The notes beneath the pieces were generated by a model, which did no database searches, was not told the DNA's origin, and saw only the letters and a list, made by a program, of their open reading frames with translations. Of a DNA stretch of 64,000 nt, positions 13,735-59,875 are shown one piece after another. The translations under genes and the position numbers were made by a program. How positions within the stretch are numbered: the first letter of the stretch is position 1; the number at the start of each line of letters is the position of its first letter. The stretch covers positions 62,001 to 126,000 of the forward strand of contig NZ_JH994110.1 of assembly GCF_000316195.1 (NCBI RefSeq). Reading direction: 5' to 3'. This DNA is from Brachyspira hampsonii 30446. Its GTDB lineage: Bacteria; Spirochaetota; Brachyspiria; Brachyspirales; Brachyspiraceae.

Positions 13735-14552
13735 TTAAACAAGTCTTATATGAAGAGTATTAAAATTTATAATCTTTTTTACAAAAGGTAAATGTCTTAA
13801 TATTCCTATGAATCCCCATCTATTTTTAAAATAATCAGAATAATTGTAACTGTTTATAAATCTTATATGACTGCTTAATTTTTCTATATCAGATGGTATA
13901 TCTAATCCCCATCTAAATACCGCATTTGTTTCTTTTACAGTTTCATGAAGTTTTGTATTTTTAGCTGAAATTGTAGGTATAGTATCAAATATAAAATGAC
14001 AGTTAATAAAATTGGCAGATAGTTTTTCAATTAATTCTTTTATATAACTTTCTTCTATATACATCAATACACCCTCAGATATTATTATAATAGTACCTCT
14101 TACTTTAATATTTTTTATCCACCTATAATCTAGTATAGATGATGATATGCATTCATAATTTTTATTATTTTCAAGTTCTTTAAAAAATTGTCTTCTTAAA
14201 AAAATAACATCTTCAAAATCTATATCATACCAATAAATATTATCTTTTATAAATCTGCTTACTCTTGTATCAAGACCTGCTCCTAAATTTATAATGGTAA
14301 AAAATTCTGTTGCACTTTTTTCAATAATATCTTTTATTATATCATTATATCATCTATTATTTTTGTTCTTACACAGGTTCCTACTTGAGTTCCATTAGAA
14401 TTTTTAAACTTTGAAAAATCATAATTTATTTCTTTTAATATTTCTATAGATTTATAATCTTTGATGATTGAATCTTCTCTTTTACTTTCTTCTGCTTTCG
14501 CCCATAGTGTAATTAATAAAGTCTCAGATACTCCATTTAAATTAATATTCAT
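13735..14552 (-). pseudogene. Class I SAM methyltransferase (LCM/PPM1 type), broken by an 8-bp duplication
   Basis: The 5' part (14552-14337) encodes 'NGVSETLLITLWAKAEESKR ... VGTCVRTKIIDD' and then hits a stop. A different frame continues without interruption from ~14336 to 13735 with 'INLGAGLDTRVSR' (SAM-binding motif I) and 'IISEGVLMYIEE'. The two parts together match the leucine carboxyl methyltransferase/TcmP-like family over its whole length. At 14336-14351 the 8-mer GATATAAT occurs twice in tandem; removing one copy restores a single 269-codon frame reading ...IIDDIIKDIIEK.... So one small duplication inactivates an otherwise intact gene. A sequencing error is possible but less natural than tandem slippage. 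Confidence 0.85.
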
Positions 14553-14782
14553 AATATAGCCTCTTTAAATGTTAGATTATTCTAATATTTGGTATTATAT
14601 ATGTTTTATATTTTTTGTCAAATTCCTAAAATATATTTATACTTCCATACATTTAAGATTGTGTTTATACATACAAATAAATCATCAGTTAAATTTTTAA
14701 TTTATTTAAAGCACTGTTATAAATTTTTAATAATAAAATGAAATTTAAATAACAAATTAAATAAGAAGAATTAAATTAATTC

Positions 14783-15143
14783 TAAGTGCGGTAATAAAAA
14801 ACAATAAATTTAAAAAAATATTGGGCAGGAAATAAAAATAACAAATTAAAGCAGAAAAGAAAAATAATACAGAAATTGCAAAATAATACTAAAAATTTAG
14901 TGGGCGGGCAGATGTAATTAATTTTTAAAACTTTTATTACATACCCCACCCTTTATTCCTTATAAATATATTTTGATTTTTCATATTAACTATCTTTATA
15001 GCTTAATCTGAAATTTCAGCACCCACCCAAGTTTTTATTAGGTATTTCATGCATACAACCGCACGGTTAGAATATTTTTAATTATTAACAAAGTTTTAAT
15101 TTATAAGTGAAATATTATATTTTTAATACTGCTCTGCGTGCGG
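14783..15143. repeat. Nested-palindrome repeat, full copy
   Basis: Boxes in order: GTGCGG (14786), TTGGGCAGG (~14821), GTGGGCGGGCAGATGTAAT (~14900), ATTACATACCCCACCCT (~14938), CACCCACCCAAG (~15020), ACCGCACGG (~15058) and TGCGTGCGG (~15135). This is the form with TGTAATT/AATTACA next to the inner boxes, unlike the AGCGAGAAAA form in the 1-1960 array. It is followed after 35 bp by a decayed gene lacking its 5' end. Confidence 0.85.
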
Positions 15144-15178
15144 AATGATTTTTTAAAAAAAATTACAAAAATTAATAG

Positions 15179-15673
15179 TGTCTTTCGGAAGACATAGAAA
15201 ATTATTTTGAAAATGAAAATAAATTCAAATCCATTTTAAATTAGGGACATCATTATGTTAGTTTAATTCTAAATAATTATGATTTTCTCAAATTTTTATG
15301 CTCATTTATAAGGTTTAGAACTGATTATGATATTGTTGAAAATGGAGAAGATATTGTATTTTCTAATATAAAAAGTAAAGAGTACGGCAATAAAAAAATG
15401 CATAATATAGATTCTATTATAGATGATATAAATACATTTTTCTATATAGCAGAGAGCATGTACTTTTTTAATCCTTATACGTTAAAAAGCTACAAAGATA
15501 TACTTGATTCTTTGCTTTCATCTTTAATGTATTTATACCGCTCAGCAGAAGAAAATAAAAAAGACTATAAACTTTTAAATGAATTAAAAAATCTTGATTT
15601 TAGAGATGTCAAAAGTATGAGGATATATTTATTAATAATGCCTTATTCTTTTAATGCGGTTCTGGTACTTTAA
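15179..15673 (+). pseudogene. Decayed gene of unknown function, 5'-truncated with an in-frame TAG
   Basis: One reading frame carries protein-like sequence from 15179 to the stop at 15673. It is interrupted once, by TAG at 15242-15244. Upstream of the TAG it reads 'SEDIENYFENENKFKSILN', and downstream 'GHHYVSLILNNYDFLKFL ...' through to '...YLLIMPYSFNAVLVL'. Only the last 91 codons follow an ATG (15398), and that ATG has no ribosome-binding site. The frame has no start at its left end, which abuts the palindromic repeat, so the 5' part was probably lost there. The product family is not recognised. A terminator follows at 15719. Confidence 0.6.
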
Positions 15674-15718
15674 AAAGACAATAAAAATAGCTTTTTTTTA
15701 ATTAAAGATTAATCAATA

Positions 15719-15748
15719 AAAACATCATGCTTAAATAGTATGATGTTT
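15719..15748 (+). terminator. Rho-independent terminator
   Basis: AAAACATCATGC / GTATGATGTTTT stem with a 6-nt loop and T-run; the arm difference is G-U in plus RNA. It still marks the end of the decayed gene upstream. Confidence 0.75.
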
Positions 15749-15866
15749 TTTATATATTTTATTGAGGTATTTAAAAAACTACATACTTCAAATGCATTTT
15801 TTATATTCTTTAGTATACTTAATCATATTCTTAAATAAACATTATTACAATTTAAAGGAGTAAAAT

Positions 15867-15998
15867 ATGAGTAATAAAAGAAATAATCATGAAGCAGACA
15901 TAAGCAATGCCAATAAAGGCAGCAAAGGAACTAATATTACTTATGATAAAAATCAAGGTAATAGAGGAAAACAATTAAATCCTAATCAAAAAAAATAA
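15867..15998 (+). CDS. Small basic Asn/Gly/Lys-rich protein (43 aa)
   Basis: ATG at 15867 is preceded by a strong AAAGGAG site (7-nt spacing) and opens a 43-codon frame. The product is highly polar: 'MSNKRNNHEADISNANKGS' then 'NITYDKNQGNRGKQLNPNQ'. It has no hydrophobic core and is probably disordered. The 'NQGNRGKQLNPNQ' ending resembles a group of tiny conserved hypothetical proteins I have the impression of seeing in other bacteria, but I cannot name it. It may be co-transcribed with the lipoprotein gene 46 bp downstream. Being below 60 codons it is easily missed by gene callers. Confidence 0.65.
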   Translation: MSNKRNNHEADISNANKGSKGTNITYDKNQGNRGKQLNPNQKK

Positions 15999-16044
15999 CT
16001 TAAAGTATAAATAACATTTTAGTTAAATAAAAAATGGGGAAAAA

Positions 16045-16347
16045 ATGAAAAAAATAATCGGTGTTATTATAATATCAATATTTGCCGTGGTGGGCTGTTC
16101 TACTATAGCAACAGTTGAAAGTATTCCACAAAGTTTGCAGCTTACAGGAGATGATATTGAAGTGGGAGAAGTTTTAACTGCAGAACTTCCTTATAATTCA
16201 AAAGATGAAACTTTAAAAGAGCAGTTAATAGCTGAGGCTTTAAAAGATACAAATTATGATTTTATTATTATGCCTAGATATGAAATAGTAAAAACAGGTT
16301 TTTCTACAAAAATGAAAATAAGAGGAAAAGGAGCCAGAGTAAAATAA
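16045..16347 (+). CDS. Small lipoprotein
   Basis: A 100-aa precursor. It has a signal peptide with lipobox 'FAVVGC' (Cys18), so it is likely lipid-anchored. The mature part ends with 'YDFIIMPRYEIVKTGFSTKM', a short alpha/beta segment resembling small envelope lipoproteins of spirochaetes that combine an 'ALKDTNYDFIIMPRYE' helix-strand unit. No enzymatic motif. RBS is a GGGG tract 8 nt before the ATG. A bidirectional terminator separates it from the convergent DJ-1 family gene. Confidence 0.75.
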   Translation: MKKIIGVIIISIFAVVGCSTIATVESIPQSLQLTGDDIEVGEVLTAELPYNSKDETLKEQLIAEALKDTNYDFIIMPRYEIVKTGFSTKMKIRGKGARVK

Positions 16348-16357
16348 TTATTATAAA

Positions 16358-16387
16358 AAACCTCATGTTTTTTAAGCATGAGGTTTA
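16358..16387. terminator. Bidirectional terminator between convergent genes
   Basis: AAACCTCATG / CATGAGGTTT perfect stem flanked by A-run and T-run, midway between the lipoprotein stop (16347) and the DJ-1 family stop (16405). Confidence 0.85.
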
Positions 16388-16404
16388 TTTATAATATAAA
16401 AATA

Positions 16405-16914
16405 TTATTTCAATTTCTTTATTATCTCTTTAGCAAAATAAGGCAAATCGTCTGGGCATCTTGAAGTTACAATATTACCGCATACCACTACTTTTTCATC
16501 TTTATAATTAGCTTTAGCATTTATCAAATCATCTTTTATACTTATATAGCATGTAGCATCTTTGCCTTCCAAAACTTTAGCTGATATCAAAGTCTGCTGT
16601 CCATGGCATATTGCACCTATAGTGAGGTTATTATCAACGAAATATTTTATGATTCTTTTTACATCGTCATTACCTCTTATAGCTTCAGGTGCTCTTCCTC
16701 CGGGTATTATTAATGCTTTATAATTTGAAGGATCAACCTCTGAGAAATTTAATTTTGCTTCTACTTTGAAAAAATATTCTCCTTTAATCTCTCCTTTGTT
16801 TAAAGCCGCTATATCAACATCAATGCCCTCTTCTATAAGTCTGAAATATGGATAAAACAATTCTGAATCTTCAAATAAATTGTCTGTAATAATTAATGCT
16901 TTCATTTTATACTC
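16405..16914 (-). CDS. DJ-1/PfpI (ThiJ) family protein
   Basis: A 169-aa single-domain protein of the DJ-1/PfpI superfamily (YhbO/YraA-type). The nucleophile elbow is 'GAICHGQQTLISA', with Cys followed by His. An earlier conserved 'ALIIPGGRAPE' turn and a late 'VVCGNIVTSRCPDDLP' segment match family members that act as stress-protective deglycase/protease-like proteins. The frame is open upstream to 17055, but the true start is the ATG at 16914: it has AAAGGAG 6 nt upstream and gives the normal family N-terminus 'MKALIITDNLFEDSEL'. The extra 47 codons upstream are low-complexity and rejected. Confidence 0.88.
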   Translation of the reverse strand, partial: EYKMKALIITDNLFEDSELFYPYFRLIEEGIDVDIAALNKGEIKGEYFFKVEAKLNFSEVDPSNYKALIIPGGRAPEAIRGNDDVKRIIKYFVDNNLTIGAICHGQQTLISAKVLEGKDATCYISIKDDLINAKANYKDEKVVVCGNIVTSRCPDDLPYFAKEIIKKLK

Positions 16915-17015
16915 CTTTATATTATAAATTTCTATATATAAATATAATATTTTTTTTGATATTATATATTTTTTGTTATCTTTATAAAGATCAAATAAAA
17001 AATATAGGATAAGAA

Positions 17016-17441
17016 ATGAAAACTTTTTTAAAAACAATCTATTATATCTCTGCAATTATATTCTGCATGTTATCTATATCTTGATCAAATGATGTAACAA
17101 AAACAGGAGATGGTATAGATACAAAATATGCAGGAAAATATTCGGCAGAAATAAATAGAAAATACCAAAACGGTAATATAGAGCTAGCAAAAGCTGCATT
17201 TACAATTAATAATGACGGCTCTTTAACAGGATTAATAACTTACTATGGAGGCTCTCCGTCAGAAAATATTGAATTATCAAAAGGAAATATCACTAAAATT
17301 TCAGATAACAGTTATAGTGCCGAACAAAATTTTATCGGCTTAAAAAAATATACATTTACATTTAAAGATAATATATTATAACTTAATATAGTTAATGAGG
17401 ACAATTCAGTAACATCTGGTCAATTAATCAAGTACAATTAA
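17016..17441 (+). pseudogene. Decayed lipoprotein gene with stop at the lipobox Cys
   Basis: A start with AGGATAA just upstream opens a signal peptide 'MKTFLKTIYYISAIIFCM LSIS', and then codon 23 is TGA (17082-17084). That is exactly where a lipobox Cys (TGT or TGC) is expected. The same frame continues as plausible mature lipoprotein ('NDVTKTGDGIDTKYAGKYSA ... AAFTINNDGSLTGLITYYGG'). It meets a second stop, TAA, at 17379-17381, and finishes at TAA 17439-17441. The 'KYAGKYSA' and 'TINNDGSLTG' pattern resembles small beta-sandwich lipoproteins. With two stops in one frame it is a pseudogene, not a recoded gene. Confidence 0.75.
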
Positions 17442-17483
17442 ATTTAAAAATGTAAATTTATTTAAATTTTCTTGTAAAAAAAA

Positions 17484-17512
17484 TTGACATTAAATCATAA
17501 ATGTATTATAAT
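17484..17512 (+). promoter_or_regulatory. Consensus sigma-70 promoter for the Tyr/Asn-rich protein
   Basis: TTGACA (17484-17489), 17-bp spacer, TATAAT (17507-17512): a perfect consensus. The downstream leader contains several GTAAAT/ATTTAC half-sites (17514-17545) that could bind a regulator. The product is probably made in large amounts. Confidence 0.8.
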
Positions 17513-17562
17513 GTAAATACAGTAAATAATAAATTTACAATATATTTACAAAGGATATGTTT

Positions 17563-18552
17563 ATGAGTAAAATACTTTTTAAAGCAATACCTGCCTTGAT
17601 AATATCTTCAGGTATGTTGTTTGCTCAATATTATGATTCCTATAATTATCAGAACAATTATAATTATCAAAATAATTATAATGCATATCAAAACTATAAT
17701 GTTCCAGCAAACAATTACTATAATAATTATTATCAGGAGTTTATGAGAACTTTATCTCAGGAGGCAAATAATCCTAATAGTATTTATTACAATCCGGGAT
17801 TTTACGAACAATATAACAATTATAATGCTATGCAGGGAAATCCGTATCAGGATACTATGAATGCTATGAATTGGGCTTCTCAAAGCTATAATAATGATCC
17901 TTATTACAATAACAGCTATAATAATTATAATAATCAAGGATATAATGATACTGTAAATTACACAAATCCGTATGAAGAATTAATGAAAATGTTGGAAACA
18001 GAATCTCAAAACCCTAATAGTCCTTATTATAGCCCTAATGCAAATCAAAATGGATATTATGAAAATTATAATAATTATGATAATACTGCTCAAAATGCTT
18101 ATCAAAATGACTATTATAATGCTTATGATATGCCAAGTGAATACTACAATAATAATGCTTCTCAAAATTATAATCAGACAAATAATAATAATATCTCAGA
18201 TAATCCTTATCAGCTAGCTGCTGAAGCTTTAATAAAAGCAGCAGAAGAATTAACTAAAAAAGCAAATGGTATGCAAGACTCAAATAATGCTTATACTCCT
18301 AATGCTAATTTAAATAATAATAATGCCACCGCAGAAAATACTCAAAATGCACCATTATATATTCAAAACTTTTATACTCCTTTCAAAGTGCCTCAAATAG
18401 TTTTAGATACAGCTGCTTCAAAATATCCAAATGTTCAGATATTGGATGTAGAAATGAAAGAGATAGGTACTTATGAGGTTAGAATGGCAAATAATATGAG
18501 GCTTTATATAGATAGAAACGGCAACTTCCTTCAAGAAAAAGCAGATTATTAA
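17563..18552 (+). CDS. Exported Tyr/Asn-rich low-complexity protein with C-terminal PepSY-like domain
   Basis: A 329-aa protein. The signal peptide is 'MSKILFKAIPALIISSGMLF' ending A-Q. Residues ~23-240 are extremely rich in Asn, Tyr and Gln ('YNYQNNYN' runs). Two related segments, 'EFMRTLSQEANNPNSIYYNP' and 'ELMKMLETESQNPNSPYYSP', are spaced ~80 residues apart. The last ~60 residues ('VPQIVLDTAASKYPNVQILD ... LYIDRNGNFLQEKADY') look like one PepSY/DUF2874 unit. ATG 17563 is chosen over the ATG at 17557 because AAAGGA is 7 nt away from it rather than 1. The composition suggests a surface or matrix-like, aggregation-prone protein. The perfect promoter implies high expression. Function unknown. 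Confidence 0.75.
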   Translation: MSKILFKAIPALIISSGMLFAQYYDSYNYQNNYNYQNNYNAYQNYNVPANNYYNNYYQEFMRTLSQEANNPNSIYYNPGFYEQYNNYNAMQGNPYQDTMNAMNWASQSYNNDPYYNNSYNNYNNQGYNDTVNYTNPYEELMKMLETESQNPNSPYYSPNANQNGYYENYNNYDNTAQNAYQNDYYNAYDMPSEYYNNNASQNYNQTNNNNISDNPYQLAAEALIKAAEELTKKANGMQDSNNAYTPNANLNNNNATAENTQNAPLYIQNFYTPFKVPQIVLDTAASKYPNVQILDVEMKEIGTYEVRMANNMRLYIDRNGNFLQEKADY

Positions 18553-20786: not shown

Positions 20787-20990
20787 TAAAATAGAGTTTA
20801 TACTTGTTTTAAAACTAAATTTTTTATTTATTAACTATGAGTACACACCAAACTTATTTTGTTATTGTTTCAGTGATACAGGCTTTATATCTATAATGCT
20901 AATGTAATCATATTTCAAAAATAATGTTTTAAATAGTTCAGCATTTAATTAAAAATTGCCGCACTACAAATACTAGTATTTCTAAAAAGT

Positions 20991-58286: not shown

Positions 58287-59045
58287 GTGAAAAAAATCAT
58301 ATTAATTATATTAATAATTTTATCATTATCATGTAAAAAATCTAATGAAAACATTTATTTTAAAAAAGCTCCTTCTGCAAACCAATACATTAATGTAGGA
58401 ATATATGTTTATGATTATCCTTTCGGATATATATCTAATGGCAATATAGGCGGATTTGATTATGATTTAGTTAATGAAATATCAAAAATATCAGGCTCAA
58501 ATATGATTTTTTTTCCCATGCGTTTTGAAGAACTTATACCCGCTTTAGAAACTAAAAAAATAGATATGATTGCAGCTGGAATGAGTGTAACAGAAGAAAG
58601 AAAAAAATATCTTACATTTTCTGATAAATATTATACATCAAGTCAGGCTGTATTGGTAAGTATAGATAATGAATCAATACAAACAGAAGAAGATTTGATA
58701 GGCAAAAAAGTAGGGGTTATAAGAGACACTGTAGCTGATAATATGATTTCGGAAAAAGAAGGAATAGAAATAGAAAGATTCGACACAGGAAGCAGTATAA
58801 TCCTTTCATTAAAGGTTGGAAATATTGATGCCGCCATTTTTGACAAAGAAACATGCAATCATTTTCTTAGATATGATAAAAGTATAAAACTTGTCAATAC
58901 TATAGAATACCCTCAGGAAGATTATGCTATAGCATTTAGAAAAGAAGAAAATGTCTTTATAAATGAAGTAAACAAAGCCATATCACAGATAATGACTAAT
59001 GGATTTTATGAGCTATTAATACAAAAGCATTTAGGCACCAATTAA
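58287..59045 (+). CDS. Amino acid ABC transporter substrate-binding lipoprotein
   Basis: A 252-aa precursor. A short signal peptide ends in the lipobox 'LSLSC' (Cys16). The mature protein is an SBP_bac_3 type periplasmic binding protein: 'VGIYVYDYPFGYISNGNIGG' and 'FDYDLVNEISKI', then 'MIAAGMSVTEERKKYLTFSD' with the typical Arg for the ligand carboxylate, 'LIGKKVGVIRDTVADNMI' and 'DYAIAFRKEENVFINEVNKA'. It captures a polar amino acid. Start is GTG at 58287, with AGGAA upstream and no nearer ATG. No permease or ATPase gene follows, so it is an orphan binding protein. Confidence 0.87.
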   Translation: MKKIILIILIILSLSCKKSNENIYFKKAPSANQYINVGIYVYDYPFGYISNGNIGGFDYDLVNEISKISGSNMIFFPMRFEELIPALETKKIDMIAAGMSVTEERKKYLTFSDKYYTSSQAVLVSIDNESIQTEEDLIGKKVGVIRDTVADNMISEKEGIEIERFDTGSSIILSLKVGNIDAAIFDKETCNHFLRYDKSIKLVNTIEYPQEDYAIAFRKEENVFINEVNKAISQIMTNGFYELLIQKHLGTN

Positions 59046-59052
59046 TACACAA

Positions 59053-59306
59053 TACTTGTTTTAAAACTACTTAATAAGATTATATATAATATTTTCATAA
59101 TTTATCAATTATAAAAACAATATTTGTTATATAGATTAACATTTTAGTATACGAACATGCAGTCATTTATACTGATACCATATACCTACCGTCATAACTC
59201 AGAGTGAACCAGCACATATTGCACAAACGAAATTAGTTTACCACCCTACTGCTACGATTAGAAAGGCTAGCCGGCAATATAAATAGCAATAGTTTTTAAA
59301 CAAGTA
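59053..59306. mobile_element. MITE-like element with terminal inverted repeats
   Basis: TACTTGTTTTAAAACT (59053-59068) and AGTTTTTAAACAAGTA (59291-59306) are near-perfect inverted ends of a 254-bp segment. The middle (about 59152-59278) is clearly richer in G+C than its surroundings. It contains ATATTGC ... GCAATAT arms around a ~50-nt loop. On the minus strand the richer part reads as a broken frame ('ILPASLSNRSSRVVN', stop, 'FRLCNMCWFTLSYDGRYMVS'), perhaps a transposon remnant or a structured RNA. A single left-end-like TACTTGTTTTAAAACT also occurs at 20807-20822. Together with this element, the 59046-59452 gap holds no gene. Confidence 0.5.
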
Positions 59307-59452
59307 TATAAAAAATATTTAATCTCTATGTAAAATTACTATATACAAAATGTTTTATAAGTAAATTTTTTTCTAATTAAACTTGAATAATATAAAACAA
59401 TTATTATATTTATAATATATAAAATAATAAACTGTGAATGGGAGTATTGATT

Positions 59453-59875
59453 ATGAAACCTAATTTAATATTAATGGGTCATGGCAATTTAGCATCCACA
59501 TTTATTGAATCAGCAAAGATGATATTAGGTAATTTATCAGATTATGATGTAATAAATTTGCAGGCAGATAATACCTTCGATCATATAGAAAATCAGTTAA
59601 AAGAATTATTAGAAAAATACAAAAATAATCAAGTTTTAATAATGACAGATCTATATGGAGGAACCCCTTTTAATATAGCGAGCAGGTTTTATAGAAAAAA
59701 TGACAATATCTGTTTAATAAGCGGAATGAACTTAGACATGGTATTGGAATATTTTTCTTCAGATCTTGATTATAATATGAAAAAATTTATAGATGAAATT
59801 ATAAGTGTTTCAAAAGATTCAATAGCATTGTATTCCAAAAATGAATATGAAATATATGCCGATATAGATTTATAA
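59453..59875 (+). CDS. PTS EIIA component, mannose/fructose family (stand-alone)
   Basis: A 140-aa EIIA-Man domain. 'ILMGHGNLASTFIESAKMIL' carries the phosphorylated His (residue 10). 'VLIMTDLYGGTPFNIASRFY' is the second hallmark block, and 'LISGMNLDMVLEYF' the third. It receives phosphate from HPr and passes it to an EIIB, or acts as a regulator when alone. The ATG at 59453 is chosen because GGGAG lies 8 nt upstream; the ATG at 59438 has no site and would add only five residues. No EIIB/C/D genes are nearby, so a regulatory role is likely. Confidence 0.88.
   Translation: MKPNLILMGHGNLASTFIESAKMILGNLSDYDVINLQADNTFDHIENQLKELLEKYKNNQVLIMTDLYGGTPFNIASRFYRKNDNICLISGMNLDMVLEYFSSDLDYNMKKFIDEIISVSKDSIALYSKNEYEIYADIDL

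Follow-up and report, generated by a model that had tools for sequence, protein, structure and literature searches.

The stretch of Brachyspira hampsonii 30446 DNA analysed here (64,000 nucleotides; hereafter the window) contains a short element with inverted ends which, judged from its sequence, is very probably a non-autonomous MITE of IS5 type, present here as an old copy. Taken by itself, the window feature is an ordinary old MITE copy; the unusual part is the modular double-hairpin cores of the family to which it belongs. Comparisons were made within the genome that carries the window (G000; A+T-rich, 3.04 Mb) and with 26 congeneric genomes, which are given numbered G-handles.

The element in the window

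The limits and parts of the element and its neighbouring genes are listed in Table 1. The inverted ends described by an earlier, sequence-only reading are borne out, as ends of 18 nt that are 94% complementary and bound an element of 256 bp. At E values up to 0.1, a profile of the family's left arm matches the window at a single place (59054–59164, E 6e-16), and no match was found at this threshold in the reversed window. The left arm of this copy ranks 85th of 96 copies in its identity to the consensus, at 83% compared with a family median of 89%.

Table 1. Features of the MITE copy and of its surroundings in the window.
Feature	Positions	Strand	Remarks
Whole MITE copy, 256 bp	59052–59307	+	Inverted ends, left-arm profile match, flanks continuous in six empty relatives
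Left terminal inverted repeat	59052–59069	+	Family form AGACTTGTTTCAAAACTA; window copy ATACTTGTTTTAAAACTA
Right terminal inverted repeat	59290–59307	-	
A+T-rich left arm, conserved in the family	59054–59164	+	83% identical to consensus
G+C-richer core, decayed	59163–59285	.	
Left flank triplet ACA	59049–59051	+	AWT target copy expected here, not intact
Right flank triplet ATA	59308–59310	+	Differs from left triplet
Lone element end	20800–20817	+	Exact to left end over all 18 bases
Upstream gene, solute-binding protein family 3	58287–59045	+	
Downstream gene, PTS EIIA (PF03610)	59438–59875	+	

The core had been described as richer in G+C than its surroundings. This is correct in relation to the left arm (38.7% compared with 16.1%) and to 200-nt windows just downstream of the element (18–20%), but some nearby coding stretches reach 39.5%, so the core is G+C-rich for intergenic DNA and not for the region. 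Across the family, median G+C is 44% for 94 cores and 16% for 96 left arms. When the window core was compared with 101 other elements the best core match scored 47, against a mean of 33 for shuffled sequences, one of 200 of which scored as high. The half-unit GGYGKACTTCGTM, which is common in the family and is discussed below, is absent from the window within one mismatch, and the core of this copy is too decayed to show a double-hairpin unit. The flanking triplets also differ from one another, which indicates that the target duplication of this copy is no longer intact.

The element starts 7 bp past the last base of the stop codon of the upstream gene, and both flanking genes lie on the same strand. 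It contains no open reading frame (ORF) of at least 40 aa, and stop codons are frequent in each of the three minus frames; the broken protein-like frame proposed for the minus strand is therefore not supported. Nor is the long hairpin suggested for the plus strand; this strand folds no better than its shuffled versions, 21 of 200 of which did as well (z = -1.49). The minus strand does fold better than shuffles (z = -3.47), in a fold that takes in the paired inverted ends. A search of the whole window against Rfam at the gathering score returned two tRNAs and nothing else; six sister loci gave no match at that score, and the window element gave none at E values up to 1. The lone end noted earlier near position 20807 is present, matching over all 18 bases, and no partner end was found for it. 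With up to three mismatches the end pattern occurs three times in the window, two of these being the element's own ends, compared with a mean of 0.61 in shuffles.

The MITE family, its mobility and its probable source

When the own genome was searched with the element, at least 56 matches came from the 40 scored of 297 candidates. The best 39 listed matches besides the element itself have 63–130 nt in common with it, mostly within the first 115, at 74–87% identity. The end pattern TAGACTTGTTTYAAAACTA was found in the 3.04 Mb 147 times on the forward and 145 times on the reverse strand with up to three mismatches (backward control, 4 and 7), and 130 and 122 times with up to two (control, 0 and 0). 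Since an intact element gives one end match per strand, these counts correspond to roughly 120–145 copies, and we infer that the genome carries roughly 130. The description of the element as MITE-like is thus upheld, also by the target duplications, empty sites and IS5-family ends described below, but it is not isolated. The expectation of at least one more copy was correct and understated, and the condition that the sequence-only reading had named as refuting it, no other copies anywhere, does not hold. We delimited 96 copies (86, then ten more). They were sampled from the listed places and are not the whole set, may include a few spurious ones whose ends are weak, and are 137–428 bp long with a median of 274 bp.

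Over the 26 congeneric genomes the load of end matches ranges from 1 to 252, with the own genome highest. Outside the genus we found short A+T-rich matches to the element (best E 8e-7), which probably reflect composition. The MITE had no match in plasmid and phage collections, a 27-nt left-end pattern had none in viral contigs, and an orthologue search in a contig collection returned four distant relatives, none of them useful.

Evidence for transposition comes from the flanks of the copies. With the elements parsed as AG...CT, an identical triplet flanks 68 of 86 copies, compared with a mean of 36.4 and a maximum of 51 in 2000 random re-pairings of the flanks. These triplets are ATT (36), AAT (31) and AGT (1), so that 67 of the 68 are AAT or ATT; in the window copy and 17 others the two triplets differ. 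A T before the triplet and an A after it are preferred (66 and 64 of 86, respectively), a preference that gives rise to apparent TA or 5-bp duplications. A 3-bp ANT target duplication is characteristic of ISL2-group members of the IS5 family, and the AAT or ATT duplication of 67 of the 86 copies fits this signature. The existence of an ISL2 group within IS5 is stated in the part of the literature consulted (PMC3196728).

An origin from IS630/Tc1 had been suspected from the TA at both ends. The corresponding domain (PF13358) occurs in one of the 26 congeneric genomes, as a dead remnant with no element end nearby within five mismatches. A 3-bp AWT duplication also accounts for the flanks of more copies (68 of 86) than does one of 5 bp (40 of 86). 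The TA on both sides (79 of 86) follows from a T-AWT-A target, and an explanation by TA leaves the match of the third base unexplained. We rejected this origin.

Empty sites were sought by comparing the 15 closest of 30 loci fetched with the upstream gene. The site is filled in G000 and G023, in which the distance between the stop codon and a fixed motif in the downstream gene is 434 and 307 bp, respectively, and empty in G013, G019, G008, G003, G012 and G004, in which it is 167–178 bp. The distance could not be counted in G020 (stop motif not found) or in G007, G017, G024, G010, G016 and G011 (no EIIA motif in the stretch). The G023 copy has kept both ends and has a much shorter interior. The insertion probably dates to the common ancestor of G000 and G023, after the split from G019 and others. 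In a second, cleaner case two tandem elements in G000 correspond to one in G023, and the extra element is flanked by an exact ATT duplication where G023 has a single ATT. Of 18 flank matches between these two genomes six pairs were aligned, two of which (L226/L248 and L239/L259) were too divergent to be read.

A candidate source of the transposase is found in genome G041. Here, the MITE ends recur at contig ends, a sign of a longer identical repeat, which begins TAGACTTGTTTCAAAAGTACTTGACAAAT and ends ...ACTTTTGAAACAAGTCTA, and AAT or ATT stands beside each of the seven end pieces printed. The C-terminal 148 aa encoded beside one end are an IS5-type DDE domain (NF033581, 4e-28; PF01609, 1e-19; PF13359, 1e-18, the latter two above the Pfam cut-off); the truncated protein scores below the NCBIfam curated cut-off, at 98.6 compared with 140 bits. 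Its top row in the plasmid collection is a Spiroplasma IS5 family transposase, 50.7% identical over 97% of the query. The transposase was located at 13 places in G041, 12 of them 37-aa pieces, and this insertion sequence (IS) is seen in pieces, as its copies break at contig ends and in the sole copy that lies within a contig (C74) the left part is missing. The C74 copy (L139, positions 14500–17800) adjoins two ORFs of about 300 aa which by eye look like another transposase family. Elsewhere among the 26 genomes, fragments occur in G022, G019 and G017, and G009 gives one weak match; nothing in G000 matches the IS5-type transposase. The first 29 nt are identical to the IS left end in three of the 96 MITEs. 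Since the MITE ends match those of this IS5-family element, the MITEs were probably moved by a transposase supplied in trans. We note that at one place in the own genome (L018, C4 ~476380–477060) a MITE adjoins a fragment of the left end of this IS5-like element; by eye, no other trace of the IS was noticed in that genome.

An autonomous element was also considered for G012, G004 and G013, in which gene-bearing stretches lie between two MITE remnants about 1.4 kb apart from outer end to outer end (L125–L127). The 1.4 kb between the ends holds a leucine-rich-repeat-like gene by eye and no transposase-like ORF (ORFs listed for G012 and G004), and we rejected this reading; the gene is possibly cargo.

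In our view, a transposase from a full IS5-family element would have recognized the roughly 18-bp inverted ends in trans. The MITE would then have been cut out or copied and inserted at an A+T-rich T-AWT-A target, with duplication of the central AWT. The window copy would since have gathered mutations, and the IS5-type element would have been lost from the own genome. The mobilization in trans, its cut-and-paste or copy mode, the timing and the lack of a function at the window site are all what we infer. The suggestion that the feature is the deleted remnant of an IS is supported in this sense by the copy number, the target duplications, the empty sites and the ends common to an IS5-family element.

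As the element lies just past a stop codon between two same-strand genes and its family has strong hairpins, it could be a site-specific regulator or transcription terminator kept by selection at this locus. We consider this very unlikely, because the locus is empty in six relatives, the window copy is more diverged than the median and the family shows no bias in placement: 75 of the 84 copies with enough flank have an ORF on both sides, 46 of these pairs being tandem, 14 convergent and 15 divergent, and among the tandem cases the element runs with the genes in 23 and against them in 23. Only one of the 84 copies overlaps an ORF of at least 80 aa that reaches beyond the element. The placement is that of tolerated intergenic insertions and does not point to action as a terminator or regulator.

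The same equal division argues against a structured RNA gene, such as a TnpB/IscB-type guide RNA with incidental inverted ends, which had been offered earlier as an alternative. The fold of the minus strand would suit such a gene, as would a family core hairpin that keeps its pairing through two-sided changes (see below). However, neither the element nor six sister loci matched Rfam, conservation within the family is lowest in the core, which varies from copy to copy, and the partner found by its ends codes for a DDE transposase of IS5 type; an RNA gene is in our estimate extremely improbable. We regard as equally remote a palindrome of REP/BIME type that is mobilized by a tyrosine transposase of the RAYT type. 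It would account for short G+C-rich palindromic units in many copies, mostly in non-coding repeats and in one case within a gene, but long inverted ends bound the whole element, its target duplication is of 3 bp, and the units lack by eye a constant GTAG or CGTC end tag, although some happen to end in CGTC.

Double-hairpin units in the cores and elsewhere

Young copies of the MITE have a common base core with two hairpins. In the first of these, pairing is kept through substitutions: 110 of 111 cells are standard pairs among 12 distinct sequences, and three of ten pairs have changed on both sides. This count uses a hand-placed gap between the short and long forms, which automatic alignment places otherwise. 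The cores differ from one another mainly by clean insertions, as seen in alignments of 101 distinct elements (from 96 of this family and six of a second family). The second family, observed in the own genome (L227, L231, L233, L234, L237 and L241), has different ends (TAGACCTGTTGCAATTTTGTA...) and the same G+C-rich core and units; it had no match in the phage collection either.

We collected 71 insertion cases of 14–32 nt with ten exact bases on each side. Among the distinct inserts of 18–22 nt, 15 of 33 parse completely as two adjacent Watson–Crick hairpins (stems of at least 3, loops of 3–6, at most 2 nt left over), compared with 0.24 expected from shuffles, and none of 14 inserts of other lengths does so. 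The 15 fall into about six kinds and are therefore not 15 independent events. Examples are CGCC-GAA-GGCG/TAC-TTC-GTA, CAC-GACT-GTG/TAC-TTC-GTA, TGC-GAA-GCA/CGC-AGA-GCG and ACC-GAGTA-GGT/GCC-TAAAC-GGC, in which the stroke separates the two hairpins. Several of the inserts that do not parse look one base short of doing so, and in longer MITE copies units appear by eye to be nested inside units. Within the MITEs, the short forms may instead be deletions, or the variants may have been spread by gene conversion between copies. Entry of the units into hairpin loops was tried as an explanation and is not supported: three of 20 insertion points map to predicted loops and 17 to stems, compared with 41% loop and 48% stem for random points, in a crude test that folded 90-nt pieces as RNA.

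The 13-nt half-unit GGYGKACTTCGTM is matched 82 times in the own genome (control, 1). Of these matches 60 lie in delimited MITEs of the family, six in the second family and the other 16 outside both, some of them probably in MITEs that lack one end. At least one half-unit is carried by 39 of the 96 MITEs. Over the 26 genomes there are 447 matches (control, 23), and the number of units does not track the MITE load: G008 has 31 units and four end matches, G012 has 46 and 16, and G023 has six and 66.

Units of this type also occur in an unrelated repeat, CAACTTTTTCCCGCCGC-AA-AAAGTTG, which has either no insert or 20-nt inserts at one fixed point. Of the seven distinct inserts, five have by eye a 4-bp first stem which covaries (CGCC/GGCG, CACC/GGTG, CACT/AGTG), and all seven have a second stem GAC/GTC or GGC/GCC, likewise judged by eye. 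In the form CAACTTTTTCCCGCC...AAAGTTG, the scaffold was seen both carrying and lacking 20-nt units at L226, L228, L229 and L232 and in several relatives, and a sequence resembling AAAAAGTGCAA often follows it. The second MITE family has its core in common with the first and so does not count as a scaffold of its own; the two scaffolds that we recognize are the core common to both MITE families and this separate repeat hairpin.

Presence and absence of a unit outside its host repeat was seen at one site, a prophage terminase gene compared in ten genomes. A unit is present in four (G000, G011, G004 and G017), half a unit in one (G013) and none in five (G016, G003, G022, G009 and G019). The insertion is in frame; NAKGGLRQ replaces one K, a net gain of seven residues. 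The unit of G011 is one base off (NAKGGLHQ) and the G000 gene is rearranged upstream of the unit. Since the most divergent genome, G009, is without the unit, gain seems likelier than loss. Close to a double-hairpin unit on a 25-kb contig of the own genome (L224, C2 9600–10700), we observed that portal-like and terminase-like genes meet which are apart in relatives, a rearrangement beside the unit (gene names by eye).

Two unit patterns matched 11 and three viral contigs. Two of these are low in G+C (26–27%) and carry the terminase insertion; of the other 12, eight are at 59–69% G+C, in which the matches are probably chance, two at 34–35% and two at 40–41%. At 34–35% (L339 and L341), a viral sequence from another source shows similar G+C-rich hairpins, GGCTCCGCCTACGGCGGACTTCGTC; such units are perhaps not confined to Brachyspira. 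One unit match in a relative (L320) lies inside a 666-aa frame and is probably coding sequence matched by chance, as other listed unit matches may be.

Relation to known elements

The family resembles IS5-family insertion sequences and IS-derived MITEs in its inverted ends of about 18 bp, the DDE transposase of the partner element, the 3-bp ANT-like duplication at an A+T-rich target and the short non-coding interior. It differs from IS-derived MITEs in that the interior is a patchwork of G+C-rich hairpins and not a recognizable deleted transposase gene, and in that no relative of the transposase was found in its own genome. In B. pilosicoli, three strains have 0, 15 and 17 insertion-sequence elements, and one transposase cluster has many copies in two strains (PMC3532143); the part of that account consulted mentions no MITE family. 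Among the papers listed from an open-access library, titles and the opening lines of abstracts contain no report of this MITE family or of double-hairpin units in bacteria.

REP/BIME sequences with RAYT likewise are palindromes of about 20–40 nt, high in copy number and mostly extragenic. Most REPs, according to the part of the source consulted, are sorted by a constant GTAG or CGTC end tag (PMC3733652). The Brachyspira units, in contrast, have no constant end tag, comprise two hairpins each and lie inside transposon ends.

The units have a closer counterpart in form in the double-hairpin elements of fungal mitochondria (Allomyces, Schizosaccharomyces). In the sections consulted, these are described as potentially mobile, G+C-rich and mostly intergenic, although also found in genes, and as known from the mitochondria of chytrids and fission yeast (PMC10085805); for those of Allomyces, flanking duplications are said to be lacking and movement via RNA is suggested (PMC2800124). 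Both are G+C-rich two-hairpin units in an A+T-rich genome, occur also within a gene, are present or absent between relatives and have no target duplication apparent by eye. The Brachyspira units differ in that they reside on a bacterial chromosome, are 18–22 nt long with 3–4-bp stems (the 15 that parse) and are concentrated at a few fixed points of the MITE cores and of another repeat. In our analysis the two appear closely alike in form, and because the genome is bacterial and not that of an organelle we claim likeness, not membership or common descent. We tentatively suggest, giving it somewhat less than even weight, that the units are a bacterial counterpart of the mitochondrial elements: units of 18–22 nt that move or are copied alone, enter fixed points of at least two unrelated scaffolds, nest in one another and enter a gene in frame, with the IS5-type MITE as a main carrier.

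In appearance, the core hairpins are modular insertions, defined by their structure, that pass from one sequence to another, unrelated one. For annotation this is a warning, since a unit inserted in frame adds a short peptide to a protein. If the units are mobile, they would be very small self-spreading bacterial DNA whose identity is structural, and the movement of the mitochondrial double-hairpin elements would become testable in a bacterium.
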